NCBI RefSeq assembly: GCF_003056055.1
Contig: NZ_PYFP01000001.1
Coordinates: 1,984,001-2,048,000, forward strand
From: Glaciimonas sp. PCH181
GTDB lineage: Bacteria; Pseudomonadota; Gammaproteobacteria; Burkholderiales; Burkholderiaceae_D
Direction: 5' to 3'
Length of the DNA: 64,000 nucleotides
The notes under the pieces were generated by a model. It ran no database searches, was not told the DNA's origin, and was given only the letters and a program-made list of their open reading frames with translations. This document shows positions 14,801 to 54,382 of this stretch, piece after piece (the stretch's first letter is position 1; each line of letters opens with the position of its first letter). The translations under genes and the position numbers were made by a program.

Positions 14801-14869
14801 AAAAAAAAGCCCGCAGAACCTTTCGGTTGCGGGCTGAATCCAAACCTTAGGAGGTGTTGGAGGAGACAG
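14801..14869 (-). ncRNA. Candidate small RNA with anti-Shine-Dalgarno motifs (betaproteobacterial toxic sRNA-like)
   Basis: Seen on the minus strand: a ~69-nt unit starting about 14869. It carries two C-rich stretches complementary to Shine-Dalgarno sequences (TCTCCTCC, and CACCTCCTAAGG, which mimics the 16S 3' end). It ends in a hairpin CCCGC-AACC-GAAA-GGTT-CT-GCGGG (GNRA loop) followed by U8 (14808-14801), an intrinsic terminator. A near-consensus -10 (TATAGT) sits about 6 nt upstream of the presumed start. Known (from memory): Rfam describes a 'Betaproteobacteria toxic small RNA' family found by failed cloning in E. coli, and this layout fits what I recall of it. Inferred: it could block translation by masking SDs. 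The opposite strand carries SD-like AGGAGGTG, but it has no terminator and would have a weaker TTTC loop. Confidence 0.65.
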
Positions 14870-41935: not shown

Positions 41936-44362
41936 TCAGGTACGCAGTTTCGCACCATCAAGTTTGCTGACTGCAGCAATCAAAGCGGTCATAGCAGCTT
42001 CCACGGTGTCGTCTTGCAGGGTATTTTCAGTATCTTGCAAGGTAAATCGGAAAGCAAGACTTTTTTCGTCATTTTCCAGTCCCTTGCCGTGATATTCATC
42101 AAATAAAACAAAGGCTTGCAGAATTCGGCAAGCATTGTTAGTACGCTTCTCGGCGGCAAAAATATCCAGTAAATCTTGCGCTGGAACACCCTGTTTCACC
42201 ACCACAGCAAGATCACGGACGACGGCTGGAAATTTTGATAGTTCGGCGTATTTTGGTATCGCGCGTTGTTGCAAAGCATCTGCGGTAACTTCGAATACGA
42301 CCGGTGCCAAAGGCAGCTCATACTTCTGCTGCAAGCGCGGATGTAGCTCGCCAATAAAACCGACTACTTTGCCGTCTAGCAGTACTTGCGCTGCGCGGCC
42401 CGGATGCAATGCCGGATGCTCTGTTTTGGCAAAGCGCAATGTTATTGGCGCAAACAGCGCCTCAAGATCCGCCTTGACATCAAAGAAATCCACCGCCCGG
42501 CCAGGTTGGCCCCATTGCTCTTCGGCATACGGTCCGTAGGCTAATCCGGCAACGTGTTTAGGCTGATCGAAACCTGCTACCGATAGTGGGCCATCTTGCA
42601 CGTCTGGATTGCGCGAGAATACCGTACCGGCCTCGAAAATCCGTACCCGACTAACCTTGCGATTCAGGTTGTATTTAACGTTGGCGACCAGGCTGCCGAC
42701 CAGCGACGAACGCATGACGCTCATCTGGCTGGCAATAGGATTGAGTAGTTTAATCGGCTGCGCGTTAGCGGCAAAGTCAACTTCCCACGCTTCTTCGACA
42801 AAACTGTAGTTGATCACTTCCTGATAATCTAGCGCGGCTAGTTTATGACTAATGGCGAACAACGAGCGCGTATTTTCCGGCGCAATAAACATCGTGTTTG
42901 GCGCAACTGGCGGCAATGCAGGGATGTTTTCAAATCCGTACACGCGAACGATTTCTTCAATCAGATCTTCTTCAATTTCAATATCGAAGCGATACGATGG
43001 TGGCGTCACCTGAAATACACCCGGCTCTTGCGAGAAAGTCAAACCAAGACGCGTAAAGATGTCGGCAATCAATGCATCTGTCAGCGGCACACCGATGACT
43101 TTGACGGCGCGTGCGGTGCGGATAGTCACTGGCAATCGCTGCGGCAAATTAACCTGCTGATCGTCGATAGGGCCGATCTTGGTATCTGCATTGCCGCAGA
43201 TATCGATTAATAGCGCGGTGATGCGTTCGAGATGTTCAACGTTGGTAGCGAAATCAACGCCACGCTCAAAGCGATGGCCAGCATCGGTCGAAAAATTGAA
43301 GCGACGTGCACGGCCTTGAATCGCTTGCGGAAACCAAAATGCGGCTTCCAGATAAATATTTTGTGTATCGAGCGATACAGCTGTCGCATCGCCGCCCATG
43401 ATGCCCGCCAGCGACTCAATCTGCTGTTCGTCGGCAATCACACCGATCCACTCATCAACGCTGACGGTGTTGCCGTTTAACAGTTTTAGCGATTCGCCGG
43501 TTTTGCCCCAACGCACATCGAGGCTGCCATGGATTTTATCCAGATCGAATACGTGGGTCGGTCGTCCCAATTCCAGCATCACATAGTTGGAGATATCCAC
43601 CAGTGCTGAAATCGAACGCTGACCGCTGCGCTCCAGACGCTGCTTCATCCATTGCGGTGTCGCAGCTTTGGCATTCAGACCGCGAATAATACGACCTGAA
43701 AAACGGCCGCATAAGTCAGGGGCGGAAATTTTGACCGGTAATGCGTCAGCAATATTTGCGCTGACGATTTCAAATGTCGGCTGCTTGAGCGGCGTACCAG
43801 TCAAAGCGGATACTTCACGCGCAACGCCCAGAACGGACAGGCAATCAGCTTTATTTGGGGTGAGTTTGATCGTAAATTTCAGATCGTTTAACTCATAATA
43901 ATCACGGAAATTCATGCCGACTGGGGCATCATCGGCCAATTCCAGCAACCCATCATGATCCTCGGACAGCTTTAATTCGCGGGCGGAACACAGCATGCCT
44001 TGCGATTCTACGCCGCGCAACTCGCCTATTTTGATCTCGAAAGGCTTACCGTCTGCGCCCGGTGGCAGGATCGCGCCCACCATTGCGCACGGCACTTTAA
44101 GACCGGCGCGCACATTCGCAGCGCCGCATACGATCGTTAAATGTGTCCCTGTGCCAACGTCCACCTGACAGACATTGAGCCGGTCAGCGTTCGGGTGTTT
44201 GCCGATCTCAAGCACGTGGCCGACGACGATCTGCGTGAATGGTGGCGCGACGGGCGCGATCTCTTCCACTTCAAGGCCAGACATTGTCAGCAAATGGGAT
44301 AGTTCGTCCGAAGTCATCTTCGGATCGACCATGGTACGCAGCCAGCTTTCAGAGAATTGCAT
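41936..44362 (-). CDS. pheT: Phenylalanyl-tRNA synthetase beta subunit
   Basis: 808 residues from the ATG at 44362 ([14 protein letters not shown]); a TTG 5 codons upstream is unlikely. N-terminal tRNA-binding EMAP-like domain (~40-155; [22 protein letters not shown]), B3/4 editing domain, B5 domain, catalytic-like core ([11 protein letters not shown]) and C-terminal anticodon-binding domain ([14 protein letters not shown]). With PheS forms the alpha2beta2 enzyme that charges tRNA-Phe. It follows pheS after 92 bp. Confidence 0.96.
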
Positions 44363-44454
44363 AGGGTAAACCTTCAAAAACTATCAGGGAAGACTCGGAT
44401 CAGTTGCGCGTCGTAAATAAGGCGCATGATCCGAGACATCTTGGGTGACCAGCT

Positions 44455-45471
44455 TTAATTAAATTGCTTTAAAAAGCGCAAATCGCCTTCGTAGAAGAGA
44501 CGCAAGTCGTTGATGCCATAGCGCAGCATCGTCAGGCGTTCGAGGCCGGAGCCGAACGCAAAACCAATGTACTGCTCAGGATCAAGGCCCATATTGCGCA
44601 CGACACTTGGATGTACCTGACCGGCACCGGAAACTTCTAGCCATTTACCTTTGAGCGGACCGCTGCCAAAGGCAATATCGATCTCAGCGGAAGGTTCGGT
44701 AAACGGGAAATAAGAGGGGCGAAAACGTACTTGCAAATCGTCTGTTTCAAAGAACGCTTTGACGAAATTCAAATACACGCCTTTAAGATCCGCGAAGCTG
44801 ATATCTTCAGCTATCCACAATCCTTCGACCTGATGGAACATCGGCGAATGGGTGGCGTCGCTATCGACCCGATAAGTACGACCCGGCGCAATCACTTTGA
44901 TCGGCGGCTTACTCATCCGCGCATAACGTACCTGCATCGGGCTGGTATGCGTGCGCAGCAATAATGGCTTGCCTTGGGTGTCGTTGCCTTCGATGTAGAA
45001 AGTATCTTGCATTGAGCGCGCCGGATGATTTTCGGGGCTGTTCAATGCGGTGAAATTGGTCCAGTCTGTTTCGATTTCGGGGCCGTCGGCCACATCGAAA
45101 CCAATCGAGCGGAAAATCTCTTCAACCCGTTGCCAGGTGCGCATTACCGGGTGAATACCACCGACACTGCGACCACGTCCCGGTAAGGTAACATCGATGG
45201 CCTCAGCGTTTAAGCGCGTTTGCATCTGCGCATCTGCCAACGCATCACGGCGCGCAGTCAGCGCGTTCTCGATCTGCTGTTTGGCGATATTGATGACGGC
45301 ACCCTGCACTTTGCGTTCTTCAGGTGCCAGCTTACCCAGCCCCTTCATTTGCTCCGTGATTTGACCGGTTTTGCCAAGATATTTGGCTTTGGCATTTTCG
45401 AGCGCGGCAGCATCGATAGCGGCGACAAAATCAGCCTGCGCCTGCGTTACAAGTTGTTCTAGGGAATTCAT
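44455..45471 (-). CDS. pheS: Phenylalanyl-tRNA synthetase alpha subunit
   Basis: 338 residues from the ATG at 45471 with AGGA upstream (an upstream in-frame start is not supported). N-terminal coiled-coil (~1-85), class II motifs in the catalytic domain: [41 protein letters not shown], and motif 3 [15 protein letters not shown]. Binds ATP and phenylalanine. No Phe-rich leader peptide is seen in the rplT-pheS gap, only a strong hairpin (45530-45562). Confidence 0.97.
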
Positions 45472-45529
45472 GCAGTTTTTCCTGCTCCGACGGAATCTAT
45501 AAATAAAACAAATTGGCACTGAAAGCACA

Positions 45530-45562
45530 AGCGGGGCATAAGGTGTTGACCTCTGCCCCGCT
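45530..45562 (-). promoter_or_regulatory. Strong hairpin in the rplT-pheS gap
   Basis: AGCGGGGCA / TGCCCCGCT, perfect 9 bp, with an inner AGGT/ACCT stem. No T-run follows on the minus strand (TGTGCTTTC), so it is more likely a processing or stability element than a full terminator. Located 60 bp before pheS. Confidence 0.5.
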
Positions 45563-45673
45563 CTGGATTGCTACGCTGCTTGATGATAAATAATAATACT
45601 CAGTGATAATTACTTGTAATCTTACTCAGCACTACGCATTATCAATCGGCCGCTTAGCAAACTACAAAATCAC

Positions 45674-46033
45674 TTATGCAGCGATGTTGGCTTTAACTTG
45701 ATTGACAATCGCAGCAAACGCTGGCTTGTCCATCACTGCCATATCGGCCAGGACTTTACGGTCCAGTTCGATAGAAGCACGTTTCAGACCGTTCATGAAT
45801 ACGCTGTATGTTACGCCATGCTCACGGGAAGCAGCGTTAATACGGGCGATCCACAATGCACGGAAAACGCGCTTCTTGTTACGGCGATCACGGTAAGCAT
45901 ATTGACCAGCGCGCATAACTGCTTGCTTGGCAACACGGTAAACCTTACTGCGGCGACCACGGTAACCTTTTGCAAGGGCTAATACTTTTTTATGGCGGGC
46001 ACGAGCTGTAACCCCACGTTTTACTCTAGGCAT
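45674..46033 (-). CDS. rplT: 50S ribosomal protein L20
   Basis: 119 residues, canonical length. [21 protein letters not shown]-terminal extension that threads into the 23S rRNA core, then the globular half ([20 protein letters not shown]). Needed early in 50S assembly; in E. coli it also represses its own operon. Follows rpmI after 23 bp. Confidence 0.98.
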
Positions 46034-46056
46034 AGTAACTCCTTAATAGTGTGAGG

Positions 46057-46254
46057 TTAGCCGTTTGGCAACATTGAACGAACAGAGACCATGTTTGTAT
46101 CATGGACACCGACTGAACCGCGCAATTGGCGTTTGGTCTTGGTCGTTTTTTTGGTCAGAATGTGACGTTTAAACGCTTGACCGCGTTTAACAGTACCACC
46201 CGGACGGACGCGAAAGCGCTTCTTAGCACCGCTTTTCGTTTTCATTTTTGGCAT
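46057..46254 (-). CDS. rpmI: 50S ribosomal protein L35
   Basis: 65 residues, canonical. [20 protein letters not shown] start and highly basic composition ([17 protein letters not shown]). Between infC and rplT as in most bacteria. The 213-bp gap to infC holds a hairpin at 46378-46399. Confidence 0.98.
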
Positions 46255-46377
46255 GATTCTATCTGTCCTTCAGGACAGCTCCTTTTTTAACATGATTGCA
46301 GGTGGCAACAATCGTTGCGCTTGGATGCCTACTCTCACTTGTTTAAACCTCGCCACCTTATTCCGTGACCAGATTTT

Positions 46378-46399
46378 GCAGCAGAATCAAGTCTGCTGC
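46378..46399 (-). promoter_or_regulatory. Hairpin in the rpmI leader (possible L20 operator)
   Basis: GCAGCAGA / TCTGCTGC, perfect 8 bp with loop ATCAAG, in the infC-rpmI gap. In E. coli L20 binds structured RNA in this gap to repress rpmI-rplT; a similar role is inferred from position only. Confidence 0.35.
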
Positions 46400-46467
46400 T
46401 TTTGGACGAAGTGCAGTAAAACGCACACTCCGCCACAAAACTGATAAAAGAAGTAAATATTAACTAC

Positions 46468-46989
46468 TTACTTCTTCTTTTTAGGGCCAATGATCATGAT
46501 CATTTGACGCCCTTCCATCTTAGGCCACTGCTCGACTTGTCCGAACGGCTCCAGATCAGATTTCAGGCGTTCCAGCATGCGCACACCGATATCCTGATGG
46601 GCCATTTCGCGACCACGAAAACGCAATGTGATCTTGGTCTTGTCGCCGTCTTCCAGAAACTTGGTCAGATTGCGCAGCTTGATGCCGTAATCGCCATCAT
46701 CGGTACCTGGACGGAATTTAACTTCCTTCACCAGAATAACCTTCTGCTTCAATTTGGCTTCGTGCGCTTTCTTCTGTTCCTGGTATTTAAACTTACCATA
46801 GTCCATCAAACGCGCTACCGGAGGCTGCGCAGTCGGCGCGATTTCCACCAGATCTACGTTTGCCTCTTCAGCCAAACGAAAGGCTTCTGCCAGGGAAACG
46901 ATACCGAGCGGTTCGTTTTCAACGCCGCTGAGACGCAATTCAGGTGCTGTTACTTCACCATTTATGCGATGTGACTTGTCCGTAGCTAT
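46468..46989 (-). CDS. infC: Translation initiation factor IF-3
   Basis: 173 residues when started at the ATA codon at 46989-46987; this gives the standard N-terminus [20 protein letters not shown], and AAAGGAAAC lies just upstream. No ATG fits: the first usable start otherwise would lose 17 conserved residues. Rare start codons are the rule in infC and allow autoregulation, because IF-3 discriminates against them. N-domain ([20 protein letters not shown]), linker ([12 protein letters not shown]) and C-domain ([20 protein letters not shown]) are complete. Follows thrS after 60 bp. Confidence 0.95.
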
Positions 46990-47049: not shown

Positions 47050-48957
47050 TCAGGCTTTGGTTTCGACCTCAGTTTTGAGGCGTTCTACCAATGCGTCAAT
47101 TGACATGACACCCAAATCGACATTGCCCCGCGCACGCACGGCCACTGTATTTGCATCACGCTCCTTGTCACCTACAACGAGGATATAAGGCGGTTTTTGC
47201 AAAGAATGCTGCCGTATTTTATAGGTAATCTTCTCATTACGCAAATCGACGTCTACTCTAAACCCTTGTTTCTTCAGCGTTTGTGCAACAGTTTTGACGT
47301 ATTCCGACTGCGCATCGGAGATATTCAAAATGACAACTTGCACTGGTGCCAGCCACAACGGCATCGCTCCGGCATGGTTTTCAATCAAAATACCGATGAA
47401 GCGCTCCAGCGATCCAACGATGGCCCGATGCAACATGACCGGTACCTTGCGATTATTGTCTTCTGTGACATATTCTGCGCCCAGACGACCCGGCATAGAG
47501 AAGTCGACCTGCATCGTGCCGCACTGCCATGAACGTCCGATTGAATCCTTTAAATGGTATTCAATTTTTGGCCCATAAAACGCGCCTTCGCCCGGCAATT
47601 CTTCCCAAGAAGTGCCAGAGGCGCGCAAAGCATCGCGCAATGCATTCTCAGCAGTATCCCAGACGTCATCCTCGCCAACCCGTTTTTCAGGACGCAAAGC
47701 CAGCTTTACAGCGACTTCGGTAAAGCCGAAACGGTCATAGACTTCGCGCACCACTTTATCAAAGGCGGCGACTTCGCTCTGTACTTGCTCTTCTGTACAA
47801 AAAATATGTCCATCATCCTGCGTAAAACCACGCACTCGCATCATCCCGTGCAACGCACCGGACGGCTCATTGCGATGACATTGGCCGAACTCACCAAAAC
47901 GTAGCGGCAAATCACGATAACTATGCAAAGTTGCATTAAAAATCTCGACATGGCCGGGGCAATTCATCGGTTTTAGCGCATAACTGCGGTTTTCCGACTC
48001 AGTTGTGAACATATTGTCACGATAATTTTCCCAATGCCCGGTACGTTCCCACAGCGAACGATCCAGAATCTGCGGCGCTTTTACTTCCTGATAGCCGTTT
48101 TCCTGATAAACCCGGCGCATGAACTGTTCAACTTGTTGCCAAATAGTCCAGCCTTTCGGATGCCAGAAAATCAAGCCCGGCGCTTCTTCTTGCATATGGA
48201 ATAAATCCAACGCGCGTCCGAGCTTGCGGTGATCGCGCTTTTCAGCCTCTTCCAGCATATGCAAATAGGCTTCCTGATCCTCTTTTTTAGTCCAGGCAGT
48301 GCCATACACACGTTGCAGCATTTCATTCTTTGCGTCGCCGCGCCAGTAAGCGCCCGCCAACTTCATCAGCTTGAAGACTTTCAGCTTGCCGGTAGAAGGA
48401 ACGTGCGGCCCGCGACACAAGTCGGTGAAACTGCCCTCTGTATACAAGGAAACATCCTGATCCGCAGGAATCGACTCAATCAACTCTGCCTTATAAGCCT
48501 CACCAATCGACTTGAAGTAAGCGACCGCTTCGTCACGCGGCAATACTTTACGGGTCACCGGCTCATCTCTTTTAGCCAGCTCCGCCATTTTCTTTTCGAT
48601 AATTACCAAATCGTCCGGAGTAAACGGTCGCTTATAAGCAAAGTCATAATAGAAGCCATTCTCAATCACCGGCCCGATAGTCACCTGCGCATCCGGAAAC
48701 AACTCCTTAACAGCGTAAGCCAACAAATGCGCGGTCGAATGCCGAATAACATCCAAACCCTCAGCATCCTTATCAGTAATAATCGCCAGCGCCACATCAC
48801 GCTCGATCAAATAAGAAGTATCGACGACCACGCCATCGACCTTCCCCGCCAAAGCCGCCTTAGCCAGCCCCGCGCCGATACTAGCGGCAACCTGCGCAAC
48901 TGTCAGTGGCGCATCGAACTGGCGCTGTGAACCATCTGGAAGTGTGACTGAAACCAT
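47050..48957 (-). CDS. thrS: Threonyl-tRNA synthetase
   Basis: 635 residues from the ATG at 48957, preceded by AGGAC; an in-frame start 10 codons upstream gives an atypical N-terminus. Domains: TGS (~1-62), editing N2 (~63-225; [21 protein letters not shown] with the HxxxH-type zinc/editing site), catalytic class II core (~240-535; [39 protein letters not shown]) and anticodon-binding domain. First gene of the thrS-infC-rpmI-rplT-pheST-ihfA cluster. A Thr-rich leader peptide and attenuator lie upstream. Confidence 0.97.
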
Positions 48958-49051
48958 AGTGAGTCCTATATCAGCCATCGCGCGCATTGCAACGATGCCG
49001 AATTAAATAAAATGAATGAAGAATGCTAAAAAACAGTACAAAAACGCAGAC

Positions 49052-49082
49052 GAAAAAAAACGCGGACCAGCCGCGCTTTTTC
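49052..49082 (-). terminator. thrS attenuator terminator
   Basis: On the minus strand GAAAAAGCGCGG (49082-49071) pairs with CCGCGTTTTTTTTC (49065-49052): a GC stem CGCGG/CCGCG with loop CTGGT area, ending in U8. It lies about 95 bp before the thrS ATG and after the Thr leader stop, so it would end transcription before thrS. A competing hairpin shares its 5' arm. Confidence 0.75.
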
Positions 49083-49094
49083 GAACAGAAAAAG
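49071..49094 (-). promoter_or_regulatory. thrS antiterminator hairpin
   Basis: CTTTTTC (49094-49088) / GAAAAAG (49082-49076) with loop TGTTC. It uses the same GAAAAAG that the terminator needs, so the two are mutually exclusive, the classical 2:3 against 3:4 arrangement. Located 7 bp after the leader stop codon. Confidence 0.6.
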
Positions 49095-49101
49095 ACCTCG
49101 A

Positions 49102-49143
49102 CTAGCGTCGCGCACAGATTGTGGTGGTAGTTCGCGGTGTCAT
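49102..49143 (-). CDS. Threonine-rich leader peptide of thrS
   Basis: 13 codons: MTPRTTTTICARR then TAG. Five Thr codons, four of them consecutive. AAAGG lies about 10 nt upstream. Directly followed by overlapping antiterminator and terminator hairpins and then thrS. Stalling at Thr codons when threonyl-tRNA is low would favour the antiterminator. No homologous leader is known to me for thrS in betaproteobacteria. Confidence 0.7.
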   Translation of the reverse strand: MTPRTTTTICARR

Positions 49144-49306
49144 AACCAGGATGCCTTTCTCGCTCTTACAGATATTGATCTACATTTAAATACCGCCCGC
49201 TTATTAGCGGAAGATTTTCGGATGATACCAGAAAATTTAGAATTCATGCCAAGCCACATACTATACAACCCACCAAAAAACCGATAACTGTAGCCTTAAA
49301 GTTACG

Positions 49307-49440
49307 GTGCCGTTGCACTTGCAAGCGCAACGACAGTTGAAGTTGCCTTTGAAGTTGCAGGCGCAACCATCTTTGAAGCTGTTCTTGAACTTGGCGACGC
49401 AACCACCTTTGAAGTTGACTCTGTTTTTAAACTGACAGTT
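49307..49440 (+). repeat. Low-complexity repeats (GAAGTTG/GCAACC units)
   Basis: Imperfect repeats of TTTGAAGTTG and GCGCAACC-type units. The plus strand reads as an alternating V-E-V/F-E-V frame without a start codon, and the minus strand as a Cys/Lys/Asn-rich frame (49261-49455). Neither is convincing as a gene. The stretch runs straight into the repeat element copy B. Confidence 0.5.
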
Positions 49441-49465
49441 GAGGTACCCCGTCATGTAGCGCTGT

Positions 49466-49700
49466 CAAATTTCTTAGCTGTCACTCGGGAATTGTCGGAG
49501 GACATGTTTGAGCCAAAGGCGAATTGGTCCTTCTACCAGAAGGGCAGCTAAGAAATTTGGGGGCCCGAAGGACCGCAATACCTGCGGTCGCCTTCTTTTT
49601 GGTTACTTATTTGGTTACTTATTCTGCGGGGGACGTCTGAAACAAGAAAAAGTAACCGGCTGCCCCCCCCGGCTTGCATCGACGGAGGACATACCCGTCC
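49466..49700 (+). repeat. Dispersed inverted-repeat element, copy B (longer)
   Basis: Near-perfect inverted ends CAAATTTCTTAGCTGTC (49466-49482) / GGCAGCTAAGAAATTTG (49543-49559), interior as in copy A (TCACTCGG, GACATGTTTGAGC), then GGGCCCGAAGGACC, a hairpin ACCGCAATACCTGCGGT, and a second inverted pair GGTTACTT (49601-49608, repeated at 49612-49619) / AAGTAACC (49650-49657). It ends in CGGCTTGCATCGACGG-like sequence. Lies between thrS and the efflux operon. Confidence 0.7.
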
Positions 49701-49715
49701 AATCAACCAACAAAC

Positions 49716-51203
49716 CTATCGCAAACCATCAGCCAAAATTTCCCCCCGATTCCACCAACCTCCCCCCAAAGCCTGAAACAACGCCGCGCTATCAGCAAAC
49801 CTCCCAGCCTGCGCCTGCGCCAAATTAATCACCGCCTGCTGATAAATCAACTCAGCCGCCAGCAAAGTCTGCGGGCTACTAGCCCCCAACCCAACCGATC
49901 TCCGCGCAATCTCCACACTCCGCGCCGCCGCCCGCTCGGCCAAAACCTGCCCCCGCAACGTCTCCGCATCAAACTGCAAAGCCCGCAAACTATCCGCAAC
50001 ATTCTGAAACGCCACAATCACCGTACTCCGATACTGTCCCGCAGCCTGCTCTAACAACGCCTCCGAAGCCCGCTTCTTATGCAACAAAGCCCCACCAGCA
50101 AACAAAGGCTGCGTCAACCCACCAGCCAACCCCCAAAACCCAGTGCCGCTAGTGAACAAGTTCCCGAACTGCGTCGCAGAGCTTCCAATATTCGCGCTCA
50201 AGGTAATCTGCGGCAACATATTGGCCGTCGCCACGCCAACCGCCGCCGACGCAGCATGCAACTGCTCTTCCGCAGCCCGCACATCAGGCCGCTGACGCAC
50301 CAACTGCGACGGCAAACTCACCGGCAACTGCTGCGGCAACTGCAACCCAGACAACACAAATTTCTCATCCAACTCTTCGCTAGGAAACCGCCCCGCCAAC
50401 GCAGTCAAGCGATTCCGCTGCTGCGACAACGCATTTTGCAATGGCGGCAAAGTAGCCTGCGTCTGCGCCAATGTCGCCTCTTGCGTCGCCACATCCGCCT
50501 GCGCCACATCCCCCAACGCATACTGACGCTGCAACAATCCCAGCAACGAAGTCTGCATCGCAATAACCCGCTCGGTCGCCCCGATCTGCGCCCGCAGCGA
50601 AGCCTCCTGCACGGCAGTCGCAACAACATTAGACGTCAACGTCAAATAAGCCGCCTCAAGCAAAAATCGCTGCTGCCCAGCCTGCGCCTGCAAATCTTCC
50701 ACCTGACGCCGATTGCCACCAAAAGCATCCAGCGTATAAGCCACATTAACCTGCGCCGTATGCAAATTAAACGGCGACACTTCACCCTGAGCAGGCGTCC
50801 CGGCCAGCTTCTGCCGAGTAGGTGCCAGGCTAGCATCAACACTAGGGAAATAGCTGCCCCGTTGCGCCGCCACCTGCTCATCAGCTGCACGTAATGCAGC
50901 CCGCGCCGAAGCCAGATCGGGGCTAGCCTTCAGCGCCTGCGTAATCACCGCGTTCAACTGCGGCGATTGAAACAATGTCCACCACTGCGCCGGAATATCC
51001 ATGCCAGCAACGAACTCCTGCGCTGTGCCGCCAGTGGTATCGGCAGAAACTGTTTTATCCGGTAACGGCGTTTTGGTATAACCCTGCACCGTCGGCGCAT
51101 CCGGCTGCTTAAAATCCGGACCAACCGCGCAGCCGGATAACGCCACAAGCAATATTGAAGGCGCTGCAACAGAGCGCAATAATGTTTTCTTCATGTTCTT
51201 CAT
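49716..51203 (-). CDS. NodT/OprM-type outer-membrane efflux lipoprotein
   Basis: 495 residues from the ATG at 51203 (TAGG upstream; a TTG 6 codons earlier is less likely). Lipoprotein signal with lipobox ALSGC, then CAVGPDFKQP as in OprM/CusC. Two outer-membrane-efflux repeats (TolC-like helices and beta-strands; PDLASARAALRAADEQVAAQRG, RPDVRAAEEQLHAASAAVGVA). It forms the trimeric exit duct for the RND pump encoded just upstream (84 bp gap). The coding strand is unusually G-rich, especially near the 3' end next to the repeat element. Confidence 0.92.
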   Translation of the reverse strand: MKNMKKTLLRSVAAPSILLVALSGCAVGPDFKQPDAPTVQGYTKTPLPDKTVSADTTGGTAQEFVAGMDIPAQWWTLFQSPQLNAVITQALKASPDLASARAALRAADEQVAAQRGSYFPSVDASLAPTRQKLAGTPAQGEVSPFNLHTAQVNVAYTLDAFGGNRRQVEDLQAQAGQQRFLLEAAYLTLTSNVVATAVQEASLRAQIGATERVIAMQTSLLGLLQRQYALGDVAQADVATQEATLAQTQATLPPLQNALSQQRNRLTALAGRFPSEELDEKFVLSGLQLPQQLPVSLPSQLVRQRPDVRAAEEQLHAASAAVGVATANMLPQITLSANIGSSATQFGNLFTSGTGFWGLAGGLTQPLFAGGALLHKKRASEALLEQAAGQYRSTVIVAFQNVADSLRALQFDAETLRGQVLAERAAARSVEIARRSVGLGASSPQTLLAAELIYQQAVINLAQAQAGRFADSAALFQALGGGWWNRGEILADGLR

Positions 51204-51286
51204 CTTTAAGCCTATTTTCAAGCCTCTACACTTTTATCGTGTGCAATGGATCAGCACGCTATCACCGACTAATTTCCGACTATCGA

Positions 51287-54200
51287 TTACCGACCATCAA
51301 GCGGTCTGGCAATCCCTTTACGGCGTTCGATCCAGCGTTCCAGCGCAAAATAAAATGTCGGCAAAATAAACAGCGTCAGCAATGTAGCAACCACCAATCC
51401 GCCCACAACGACCGTCGCCAGACCACGCTGCACGTCTGTGCCAACACCGGTCGCCAACGCCGCTGGCAGCATCCCAACGGATGCCACCGTCGCGGTCATC
51501 AAGACCGGGCGGAAACGTTCGGAAGCGCCCGCCAATACTGCCTCCATTAACGCCATTCCCTGTTGTCGCACCCGATTAATATTAGAGACCATAATGATGC
51601 CGTTTTGCACCGCCACGCCAAACAACGCAATGAAGCCGACGCCGGTCGCCACGTTGATCGTGTTGCCAGTAACTTGCAGCGCAACCAATCCGCCCAGCGC
51701 GGCCAATGGCACCACGCCCAAGATCAATAACGCCTGACGCAGCTTGCCAAATCCGGCATATAAAATAATCGCCATCAAACCCAGCACCAGACCGAATACA
51801 ACGATCAGCCGTGCCTGGGCCCGTTCTTGGTTTTCAAACTGTCCCGCCCATTCCAGACGATATTTCGCATGATCGAAATGGACATCTTTAGCCACCTTGG
51901 CTTGCGCTTCTTCGTAGTAGGACAGCAAATCGCGGTCCGCGTAATCCAGCCGCACGGTTAACTGACGATGCGTGCTTTCATGCGTAATCGTGCTCTCGCC
52001 AGTGCTGGTCCGAATATGCGCCAGTTGCGACAACGGAATCCGTGCGCCATTGGATGCTGTCAACAACAAATTACCCAACGCCTCCGGCCCGTTGCGGCTA
52101 TCTTTCGGAAACCTTACCGAGACGTTATAGATACGATCGGCAACATACATTTGCGTCACTGGCGCGCCGCCAATACCGGTCTGAATCAGGTTCGAAATAT
52201 CCGCGATATTGATACCCAGACGGGCAGCCGCAGCACGATCAATATCGATCACCATCTGTGGAATCGGCGGTTCCTGAAAAATCGACACATCGGCGCTGCC
52301 TCTGACACCGTGCAAGACGTTAACGATATCATTGCCGATACGTCGCAGTTCTTTAAAATCATCGCCATAAACGCGGATTACCAGTGGACTATGCGCACCA
52401 CCGACAGCATCATTCACACCATCGCTGATAGGCTGACTAATCCCGACCGAAAATCCCGGCAGCTGCACCAAACGCGCATTCAGGCGTCGTACAAATTCAG
52501 CCTTATTTTCACCGTTGGGCCACGTGCTATACGGCTTCAATCCCACCGGCACTTCCATATGCGAGGGCGTCCACGGATCGGTCCCGTCATCACTGCGCCC
52601 AAGCTGGGTAACAACGTAAGAAACCTCAGGAAACGACAGCAATGTACGGCGCAGCTCAGCCGCCATTTCACTGCCTTTTTCCAGCGACAGACCGGATGGC
52701 ATCTGCACTTGCAGCCACAGCGTGCCCTCATCCAATTGCGGCATAAACTCACGACCAGTCGCACCACCCAACACAATCACGCCCACCAATGCGATAGCGC
52801 CAATGCCATAAGCAATTACCGGTTTATTTAATAAATTTCCCAGCGTTTTACGATAGCCTGCACTCAGCCATTCGAGCGGCTTATTATGGAAAATACGACG
52901 CGGTTTGCGCAACGCCATATATGCCAATCCCGGCACCAAAACGATGCTACACAACAACGCGCCCAGCAACGCATAACTGACCGTAAATGCCATCGGCGAC
53001 AACAATTTTCCTTCGGCACGTTCAAACGCAAACAAGGGCAAATACGCGGCAATAATGATCAACGTCGCAAAGAAAATTGGCCTGATGACTTCAGTGGTAG
53101 CAGCACGGACTTCCGCCTCGCTTAATTCTTCCGTCGGCTTGGCTTCGCGCCGCCGCAAAATTGCCTCAGTAACGACAATCGCACCATCGACAATGATGCC
53201 GAAATCAATCGCGCCCAACGAGAATAAATTCGCTGGCATCTTGGTCAGATACATCATGATAAAGACCGCCACCAGCGCCAGTGGAATAGTCACTGCCGCC
53301 ACTAATGCGCTGCGTGGGCTGCCCAGAAAAAGGATCAAAACGATACACACCAGACCAATACCTTCGATCACGGTATGACTGACTTTATGCACGGTGAGTT
53401 GAATCAATTCGTCGCGATCAATGTACGGAACAATCCGGACACCTTGCAGTGCTAATTGTTTCTGTAATTGCGCAACTTTGGCATGCACATCCTTAATCAC
53501 TTCTGAGGCATTTTGATATTTCAACAGTTTGACAATCCCTTCAATCGTGTCAGGATTATTGTCCTTGCCGAGAATTCCCTGGCGCTCTTGATGACTGTAT
53601 TGCAGCTTGCCCAAATCACGCACCAATACCGGTACGCCATTGACTTGCTTGACCACGACATTGCCCAAATCGGTCAAGCTGCGCATCATGCCGATGCCAC
53701 GCACCACATAACCCTGTTCACCGCGTGAAATCCGGCTGCCGCCTGCGTTGGCGTTATTGTTGTTGATTGCGGTCGTCACATCGGACAGCGACACACCAAA
53801 ACGCTGCAACTGATCCTGATCGACTTCAAGTTGATATTCCATCGTCAAACCGCCGAAATTACCAACGTCGGCAATGCCCGCGACTTGCCGTAATTCGGGC
53901 ATGACAATCCAGCGTTGAATCTCGGACAATTCCAGCAAATTTTTGCTATCCGATTCCAGCGTATAACGATAAATTTCGCCCGATGGGCCACTGACGGAAT
54001 CAAGACTAGGTGTGATCCCGGTCGGCAACGTAGCTTGCGCCATTCGTTCGGTCACGCGTTGACGTTCCCAATAATCTTCTGCACCGTCTTTAAACGTCAG
54101 CGTAATCAGCGACAACCCAAACGTGCTGGACGAGCGCATGTGCACCAATCCGGGCGTGCCGCTTAACTGGCGTTCTAGCGGGATGGTGATTTGCTGTTCG

Positions 54201-54382
54201 ATTTCTTCAGCAGCCAGACCGGGGGCCTGGGTGGTGACTTGAGCGGAAACGTCGGACAGTTCCGGATAGGCTTCTACCGCCATCCGTGTCCAGGAATAAT
54301 AGCCAAATAACGCTACCAAAATCGTCACCAGAATCACTGCATAACGCTTTTGCAGGCAATAGCGAACGATGTTATTAATCAT
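51287..54382 (-). CDS. Heavy-metal RND efflux pump (CzcA/CnrA-like)
   Basis: 1031 residues, 12 membrane helices and two large periplasmic loops. The TM4 motif DFGIIVDGAIVVTE (Asp393, Asp399, Glu406) is the proton-relay signature of divalent-cation (Zn, Co, Cd, Ni) HME pumps such as CzcA and CnrA, rather than monovalent CusA. Full-length family layout (AVEAYPELSDVSAQVTTQAPG, GREFMPQLDEGTLWLQ). Which metal is exported is not decided by sequence. Overlaps the adaptor gene stop by 8 bp, so the two are translationally coupled. Confidence 0.92.
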   Translation of the reverse strand: MINNIVRYCLQKRYAVILVTILVALFGYYSWTRMAVEAYPELSDVSAQVTTQAPGLAAEEIEQQITIPLERQLSGTPGLVHMRSSSTFGLSLITLTFKDGAEDYWERQRVTERMAQATLPTGITPSLDSVSGPSGEIYRYTLESDSKNLLELSEIQRWIVMPELRQVAGIADVGNFGGLTMEYQLEVDQDQLQRFGVSLSDVTTAINNNNANAGGSRISRGEQGYVVRGIGMMRSLTDLGNVVVKQVNGVPVLVRDLGKLQYSHQERQGILGKDNNPDTIEGIVKLLKYQNASEVIKDVHAKVAQLQKQLALQGVRIVPYIDRDELIQLTVHKVSHTVIEGIGLVCIVLILFLGSPRSALVAAVTIPLALVAVFIMMYLTKMPANLFSLGAIDFGIIVDGAIVVTEAILRRREAKPTEELSEAEVRAATTEVIRPIFFATLIIIAAYLPLFAFERAEGKLLSPMAFTVSYALLGALLCSIVLVPGLAYMALRKPRRIFHNKPLEWLSAGYRKTLGNLLNKPVIAYGIGAIALVGVIVLGGATGREFMPQLDEGTLWLQVQMPSGLSLEKGSEMAAELRRTLLSFPEVSYVVTQLGRSDDGTDPWTPSHMEVPVGLKPYSTWPNGENKAEFVRRLNARLVQLPGFSVGISQPISDGVNDAVGGAHSPLVIRVYGDDFKELRRIGNDIVNVLHGVRGSADVSIFQEPPIPQMVIDIDRAAAARLGINIADISNLIQTGIGGAPVTQMYVADRIYNVSVRFPKDSRNGPEALGNLLLTASNGARIPLSQLAHIRTSTGESTITHESTHRQLTVRLDYADRDLLSYYEEAQAKVAKDVHFDHAKYRLEWAGQFENQERAQARLIVVFGLVLGLMAIILYAGFGKLRQALLILGVVPLAALGGLVALQVTGNTINVATGVGFIALFGVAVQNGIIMVSNINRVRQQGMALMEAVLAGASERFRPVLMTATVASVGMLPAALATGVGTDVQRGLATVVVGGLVVATLLTLFILPTFYFALERWIERRKGIARPLDGR

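Follow-up and report, generated by a model that had tools for sequence, protein, structure and literature searches.

The thrS gene of Glaciimonas sp. PCH181 is very probably controlled by a ribosome-mediated transcription attenuator of the classical threonine leader-peptide type, judging from the sequence of its leader and from those of related loci. The element lies on the minus strand of the 64,000-nucleotide stretch of DNA that was analyzed (hereafter, the window). It comprises a short ORF, a run of Thr codons and two mutually exclusive predicted folds, and these features, together with their conservation, are apparent from the sequence and from comparison. An earlier note on this DNA had suggested leader-peptide attenuation of thrS, and the comparison with relatives supports such control.

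The thrS locus and its leader ORF

The gene proposed to be controlled is located at 47050..48957 (minus strand), and its product matches threonine--tRNA ligase (TIGR00418; E value 2e-218). It probably starts at the ATG at 48957, which has AGGA just 5' to it and at which, by eye, the thrS genes of relatives start too; the ATG at 48987, taken from the ORF listing, was set aside in favor of this position. The genes infC, rpmI, rplT, pheS and pheT (41936..46938, minus strand; NCBIfam matches) lie 3' of thrS and are possibly co-regulated with it.

The leader peptide, MTPRTTTTICARR, is encoded at 49102..49143 (minus strand) by 13 codons followed by a TAG stop, and has homologues in relatives. The ORF is the one that the earlier note had claimed, and direct reading of the minus strand from 49143 to 49102 gives the codons ATG ACA CCG CGA ACT ACC ACC ACA ATC TGT GCG CGA CGC TAG. 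The stop codon is followed, in order, by TCGAGGT, CTTTTTC, TGTTC, GAAAAAG and CGCGGCTGGTCCGCGTTTTTTTT, the last ending at 49053. CTTTTTC (49094-49088) starts 7 bases past the leader stop, a distance that had also been given correctly, and GAAAAAG occupies positions 49082-49076.

A conserved block, TAAGAGCGAGAAAGGCA, is found 5' of the ORF at 49152..49168 (minus strand). It is present in many of the 70 leaders collected and is mostly invariant or nearly so in an alignment of 30 close relatives (alignment A1). The block includes the RBS-like sequence GAGAAAGG (49161-49154), which is separated from the leader ATG by 10 nt, a rather long spacing. A short ORF with an RBS, conserved 5' of the gene, is one of the characteristics of an attenuator, and both are found here, the translation of the ORF being predicted.

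Other features of the window include an imperfect tandem array (49308-49417; period 36, 3.1 copies, 75% matches) inside a 64-codon ORF (49261-49455, minus strand) located 5' of the thrS leader. The upstream neighbors (49716-54382, minus strand) encode a NodT-type outer membrane efflux protein and a CusA/CzcA-family RND transporter. A match to Rfam RF02278, Betaproteobacteria toxic small RNA, is present at 14801-14868 (minus strand) with 56.4 bits (gathering threshold 50).

Related loci and spread of the leader

Relatives were collected using the thrS protein, which matched in 60 of 60 genomes, only weakly in two of them (G011 and G013), and 80 named contigs were added. Among the 117 thrS-selected loci with a recognizable ThrS N-terminus, 56 contain, 60-420 nt before thrS, an MTPR-type ORF (no more than 2 mismatches over 14 bases). 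Removal of 20 duplicates from 90 MTPR-type leaders resulted in 70 unique leaders; one of these (L092), in which the script found no terminator, was dropped, leaving 69. They include 41 close relatives, termed the 'oxa' set (loci up to L030, L051-L054, L117, and from L135), and 28 other leaders, some of which (L032, L035, L038 and L134) are filed in the window's own family. Alignment A1 omits six divergent (L014, L015, L021, L022, L030 and L054) and five near-duplicate (L052, L137, L138, L154 and L157) members of the 41, and its apparent conservation is raised by these omissions.

The exact 17-mer GTTATGACACCGCGAAC, which spans the leader start, occurs in 337 of 392 genomes of the family, never more than once per genome, and is absent from 55; its reversed control was found in none of the 392. 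When up to 2 mismatches are allowed, the 17-mer and the reversed control each have one occurrence in the window's genome. In all 60 loci fetched by two leader patterns, several of which represent one genome fetched twice, thrS is located 119-283 nt downstream. A stricter pattern was matched in at least 29 of 399 genomes of the order, belonging to seven families, which is an undercount because the pattern must end in TAG within 30 nt. Some relatives, e.g., L026 and L027, have no leader before thrS. Short ORFs starting MSTT or MATT precede thrS in L111, L127 and L128 (titled Lysobacterales, Gammaproteobacteria and Rhodanobacter); by eye, each is followed by a terminator-like hairpin and then by thrS, and may be either a related or a convergent Thr leader.

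Threonine codons and codon choice

The proposed sensor consists of four consecutive Thr codons, ACT ACC ACC ACA, at codons 5-8 of the leader (49120..49131, minus strand). In a test that employed no leader seed, 32 of the 126 loci had a short ORF with at least three consecutive Thr codons upstream of thrS, vs. 0.32 expected from dinucleotide shuffles, the 32 not being independent events because the 126 loci are mutually related. Three loci with no ThrS hit (L035, L041 and L042) and one unusable locus were excluded from this test. Six of the 32 loci have other N-termini, e.g., MFKRTTTTRISR (Vogesella), MIFRTTTEAGN (Azoarcus) and MFFPPARTTTRNFRPMSR (Achromobacter), and the core CGA-ACT-ACN is kept in these three leaders as well as in MRAFRTTTTTLLG and MQLNRTTTTS. 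Of the 19 residues treated in this manner, Glu was the only other one in clear excess, with runs of three or more in 4 of 126 regions vs. 0.02 expected.

Of the 70 unique leaders, 50 have Thr as residue 6, 44 as residue 7 and 21 as residue 8. All four Thr codons are used at codon 6 (ACC 24, ACG 10, ACA 9, ACT 7), and codons 6 and 7 vary synonymously between leaders. Because the search was seeded on codons 1-5 (up to 2 mismatches), only codons from 6 onward are unbiased in this table, and the invariance of codons 2-5 is partly imposed both here and in the codon-usage table. A recount with an upstream hexamer as the sole seed matched 52 of 127 loci and yielded 49 distinct starts, three of which begin at an ATG two codons 5' of the usual one. 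It agrees with the ORF-seeded counts, Thr being at codon 5 in 46 of 49, at codon 6 in 33 and at codon 7 in 29. A series of codons for the cognate amino acid, another characteristic of attenuators, is present in the window; it is lost in the leaders of some relatives, e.g., MTPRTCKVSEPRR and MTPRTWKFTEIRR, and some leaders have just two Thr codons left.

Codons 2-5 of the leader (49129-49140, minus strand) are also strongly conserved where the ORF sequence was not used in the search: ACA in 44, CCG in 45, CGA in 44 and ACT in 40 of 49 starts. Based on 55 thrS genes, ACA, CGA and ACT are rare, amounting to 7%, 4.5% and 11% of Thr or Arg codons, respectively. The near-invariant ACA-CCG-CGA-ACT, with its three rare codons, is required neither by the peptide nor by a simple attenuator. 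The rare codons at positions 2, 4 and 5, the start block, and the leaders that keep just two Thr codons would all be in line with an element that senses the general rate of translation or initiation, and not threonine specifically. This seems very unlikely to us in view of the enrichment of Thr runs in the test without a leader seed and of their retention by lineages with other N-termini. A sensor specific for threonine is the reading maintained below.

Terminator and competing folds

Folding and alignment A1 indicate an intrinsic terminator, AAAAAGCGCGG-CUGGU-CCGCGUUUUUUUU, at 49053..49081 (minus strand). The corresponding DNA reads AAAAAGCGCGG / CTGGT / CCGCGTTTTTT, with eight T, and ends at 49053. 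The predicted energy of the stem-loop tested is -11.9 kcal/mol, and in A1 98.2% of cells are paired, with no pair changed on both sides. A terminator located between leader ORF and gene is typical of attenuators, and the script found one in 69 of the 70 leaders. A simple terminator scan of the minus strand did not list the window's hairpin, which is seen on folding, probably because the scan prolongs the stem into the U tract, which leaves it too few T to count.

The predicted antiterminator is composed of two helices, all arms being on the minus strand. The inner helix is formed by CUUUUUC (49088..49094) and GAAAAAG (49076..49082; A1 pairing and folding), the latter being also the foot of the terminator 5' arm. 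In the outer helix, segment 2, GCUAGUCG (49099..49106; MFE prediction and A1), which contains the leader stop UAG, pairs with segment 3, CGGCUGGU (49066..49073; folding and A1), i.e., with the end of the terminator 5' arm and the loop. Furthermore, segment 1, CGAC (49107..49110), is predicted to pair with GUCG (49102-49099) in a 4-bp protector hairpin (-3.7 kcal/mol).

The footprint of a ribosome has its edge 15 nt beyond the first base of the P site, and this value was used in the fold predictions. With a ribosome at any of codons 5-8, the predicted minimum before the terminator 3' arm is made is GCUAGUCG/CGGCUGGU enclosing CUUUUUC/GAAAAAG (-16.5 kcal/mol). With the ribosome at the stop codon, the predicted antiterminator is lost (-2.2) and the terminator forms (-14.4 kcal/mol for the RNA left free). 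When the full-length RNA was folded, the antiterminator was the minimum for stalls at codons 5-7, and the terminator was the minimum for a stall at codon 8. An antiterminator that is mutually exclusive with the terminator, free upon stalling and masked when the ribosome is at the stop codon is thus predicted from the models and the comparison. Taken as a whole, the 151-nt leader does not have an unusual folding energy (z 0.32), and the case for an attenuator therefore rests on comparison.

In A1, the outer helix is paired in 97.9% of cells, with one-sided changes only, and the inner helix in 76.7-87.8%, with two-sided changes at four pairs, a number reached by 18 of 500 shuffles (shuffle mean 2.0) and within the range of slid versions (0-4). 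The CGAC/GUCG hairpin (97.5% of cells paired) and the hairpin around the AUG hardly vary, and hence neither has covariation support. In 67 of the 69 leaders, upstream pairing of the terminator arm is predicted with P>0.5, just 12 of 69 ranking below 0.05; this probability is weak by itself because shuffled upstream parts reach mean P values of 0.65 and 0.77.

Antiterminator pairing was first examined with a duplex test, which gave a summed z of -1.46 (control -1.82) for the 41 close relatives, a value that is not significant, and a significant one of -3.62 (control 0.17) for the 28 other leaders. Since this test left out the terminator loop, an energy-shuffle test and a core-site test were added. 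The energy of the pre-terminator RNA, relative to that of RNA with a shuffled upstream part, has a mean z of -2.67 in the 41 close relatives and -0.68 in the 28 others. In the core-site test, in which the site was chosen blind to the neighboring base, a site complementary to the terminator core was found in 22 of the 28 more distant leaders (six had none), and in 18 of these it starts 0-10 nt past the leader stop. In 19 of the 22 leaders, the base flanking the core site forms a pair with the terminator loop (G-C 8, U-A 7, A-U 3, G-U 1), vs. 6.1 expected. For example, the loop bases CCUUG face CAAGG or CGAGG past the stop codon in Ralstonia (L075, L081) and Cupriavidus (L060). Among the close relatives, three of the 41 did not fit the core pattern and 37 of the remaining 38 rows have no site, the test not being applicable to them, where the helix lies partly over the loop. 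We read the varied sites and loop bases of the distant leaders as probable compensatory rebuilding of the antiterminator.

The GAAAAAG terminator arm, the U8 end and the succeeding thrS had all been anticipated in the earlier note, and are borne out by reading, folding and the TIGR00418 match. CUUUUUC/GAAAAAG, which it took to be the antiterminator, is indeed a predicted stem, but only the inner half, the outer helix with the leader stop codon having been missed. The conservation that it proposed to look for in relatives is seen in Thr codons and stems kept beyond the genus, the Thr codons changing synonymously. Compensatory stem changes, also sought, appear as the rebuilt antiterminator site of distant leaders, whereas covariation within the close relatives is slight (antiterminator score equalled by 92 of 500 shuffles). 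It contained nothing on the CGAC/GUCG hairpin, the conserved start block, the tRNA-Val context described below or the rare codons.

Other candidate pairings were set aside. The pairing of GAGAAAG in the upstream block with CUUUUUC in the untranslated fold was not relied on, because relatives that lack CUUUUUC also retain the block. A kissing interaction between the stop-codon hairpin and the terminator loop was dropped, as the complementarity is, by eye, not consistent, and so was a pairing between codons 3-4 of the leader (CCGCG) and the terminator, L017 having an altered terminator and an unchanged leader.

Nucleotide conservation in the start block, TAAGAGCGAGAAAGGCA..GGTTATGACACCGCGAACT, goes further than the peptide requires, and an invariant hairpin, CGGU/ACCG or UGGU/ACCG, surrounds the AUG. 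Both would be in line with a leader RNA that mimics tRNA-Thr and is bound by ThrRS, as at the E. coli thrS operator, the ORF being of minor importance. By eye, the AUG hairpin has no Thr anticodon-like loop, and such autocontrol has no need of Thr codons, antiterminator or terminator; we regard it as extremely improbable and retain ribosome-mediated attenuation.

Upstream context and tRNA-Val

A putative start region for the thrS transcript is the promoter-like extended -10 sequence TGGTATCAT at 49222..49230 (minus strand), a weak motif reading; TGGTATCAT or TGGTATGAT recurs upstream of the leader in L002, L003, L005, L006 and L022. A sigma-70 scan of 48900-49700 gave no promoter. In 24 of the 70 leaders (e.g., L009, L010, L012, L013 and L051-L053), tRNA-Val(GAC) is encoded on the same strand and ends 32-115 nt before the leader ATG, in 21 of them at no more than 56 nt. 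Two of the 46 leaders lacking the tRNA (L054 and L093) have less than 200 nt of upstream sequence, and ARAGORN detected no tRNA in the window. With a tRNA gene so close, there is hardly space for a promoter of their own upstream of those 24 leaders, and we infer that, where tRNA-Val adjoins, the leader effectively forms the tRNA's 3' trailer and thrS would be reached by reading through the terminator of this tRNA.

The adjacent tRNA genes, together with L027, in which tRNA-Val is followed by a terminator without a leader, would also be consistent with the hairpin being simply an old tRNA-Val terminator, with an incidental ORF and a thrS promoter further down. The Thr runs, the synonymous Thr codons and the antiterminator site past the stop codon would then be left unaccounted for, and this explanation is highly improbable. 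An old tRNA-Val terminator may nevertheless have been the origin of the attenuator that we favor.

Although we are inclined to doubt it, these observations could be united if, in part of the Burkholderiales, the tRNA-Val(GAC) terminator became a threonine-sensing gate, such that thrS and the translation operon are expressed by readthrough from the tRNA unit under an old and codon-specific sensor. The CGA-ACU-ACN core common to lineages with different N-termini would reflect the age of the sensor, and ACA-CCG-CGA-ACU would act at the nucleotide level, e.g., as a timing pause or an isoacceptor-specific sensor. Control of the tRNA promoter would in that case be combined with threonine sensing.

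Proposed mechanism

In the proposed mechanism, a ribosome would translate the 13-codon peptide while RNA polymerase transcribes the leader. With ample threonyl-tRNA, the ribosome would arrive at the UAG within segment 2 and its footprint would cover this segment. The antiterminator could then not form, the terminator at 49053-49081 would fold, and transcription would end before thrS. With scarce threonyl-tRNA, the ribosome would stall on the Thr run (codons 5-8), 13 nt separating the end of codon 8 from segment 2. This segment would remain free to pair with the terminator 5' arm and loop, CUUUUUC/GAAAAAG would close inside, and the polymerase would continue into thrS and perhaps into infC-rpmI-rplT-pheST. 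Translation of the ORF, stalling, induction by low threonyl-tRNA and the position of the transcription start are, in this scheme, deduced from the arrangement of the leader.

Relation to known systems

The closest architectural parallel is pheM-pheST of E. coli, a leader-peptide attenuator before a synthetase operon. Both have a peptide rich in the cognate amino acid, a terminator with an antiterminator, and a synthetase operon, but pheM is specific for Phe and not Thr, and the likeness is one of architecture only. The E. coli thrS operator is under translational control, with ThrRS binding a tRNA-like leader that contains no leader peptide; it shares with the element described here the feedback control of thrS through its leader, and differs in being translational, ThrRS-bound and devoid of a peptide. 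In the Firmicutes, thrS is controlled by a T-box riboswitch, which likewise acts by antitermination and senses uncharged tRNA, but binds the tRNA directly. Thr_leader (RF00506) is a Thr-rich leader peptide with an attenuator, as is proposed here, but it controls threonine biosynthesis, and the window has no match to the family. Attenuation of aminoacyl-tRNA synthetases was reportedly surveyed by Lopatovskaya et al. in 2010, and the survey may list thrS.

At gathering thresholds, neither Rfam, including RF00506, nor the T-box covariance model gave a match in the leader. At E values up to 5, the region 48900-49500 gave only a chance-level match to a microRNA family, and neither Thr_leader nor T-box. 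No description of a thrS leader peptide or of thrS attenuation in these organisms was found in open-licence PMC full texts, supplements apart. Passages of one paper describe the uORFC-8-2 motif upstream of cysS in Rhodobacterales as a leader of the attenuator type (PMC8632094). According to these passages, it resembles the thrS leader in being a predicted ribosome-mediated attenuator of a synthetase, in which the cognate codons are conserved and an intrinsic terminator is present; it differs in having Cys codons and in belonging to alphaproteobacteria. A passage of a terminator-based survey mentions self-regulation by ThrRS (PMC2965389), a table in another paper lists Thr_leader with thrA (PMC2659441), and passages on prior work appear in further papers (PMC4833913, PMC11109978, PMC6429828, PMC10272879).

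The type of switch itself is well known. What may be new is its probable use, in a Thr version, on thrS, along with an unusual linkage to tRNA-Val and an unexplained codon constraint. If the proposal is true, it would be a third mode of control for thrS, in betaproteobacteria, present in most of the genomes sampled from one family. Codon-choice theories of attenuation could then be tested directly on the natural variants, in which tRNA-Val is present or absent, the Thr run is kept or lost, and the antiterminator is built from different sequences.
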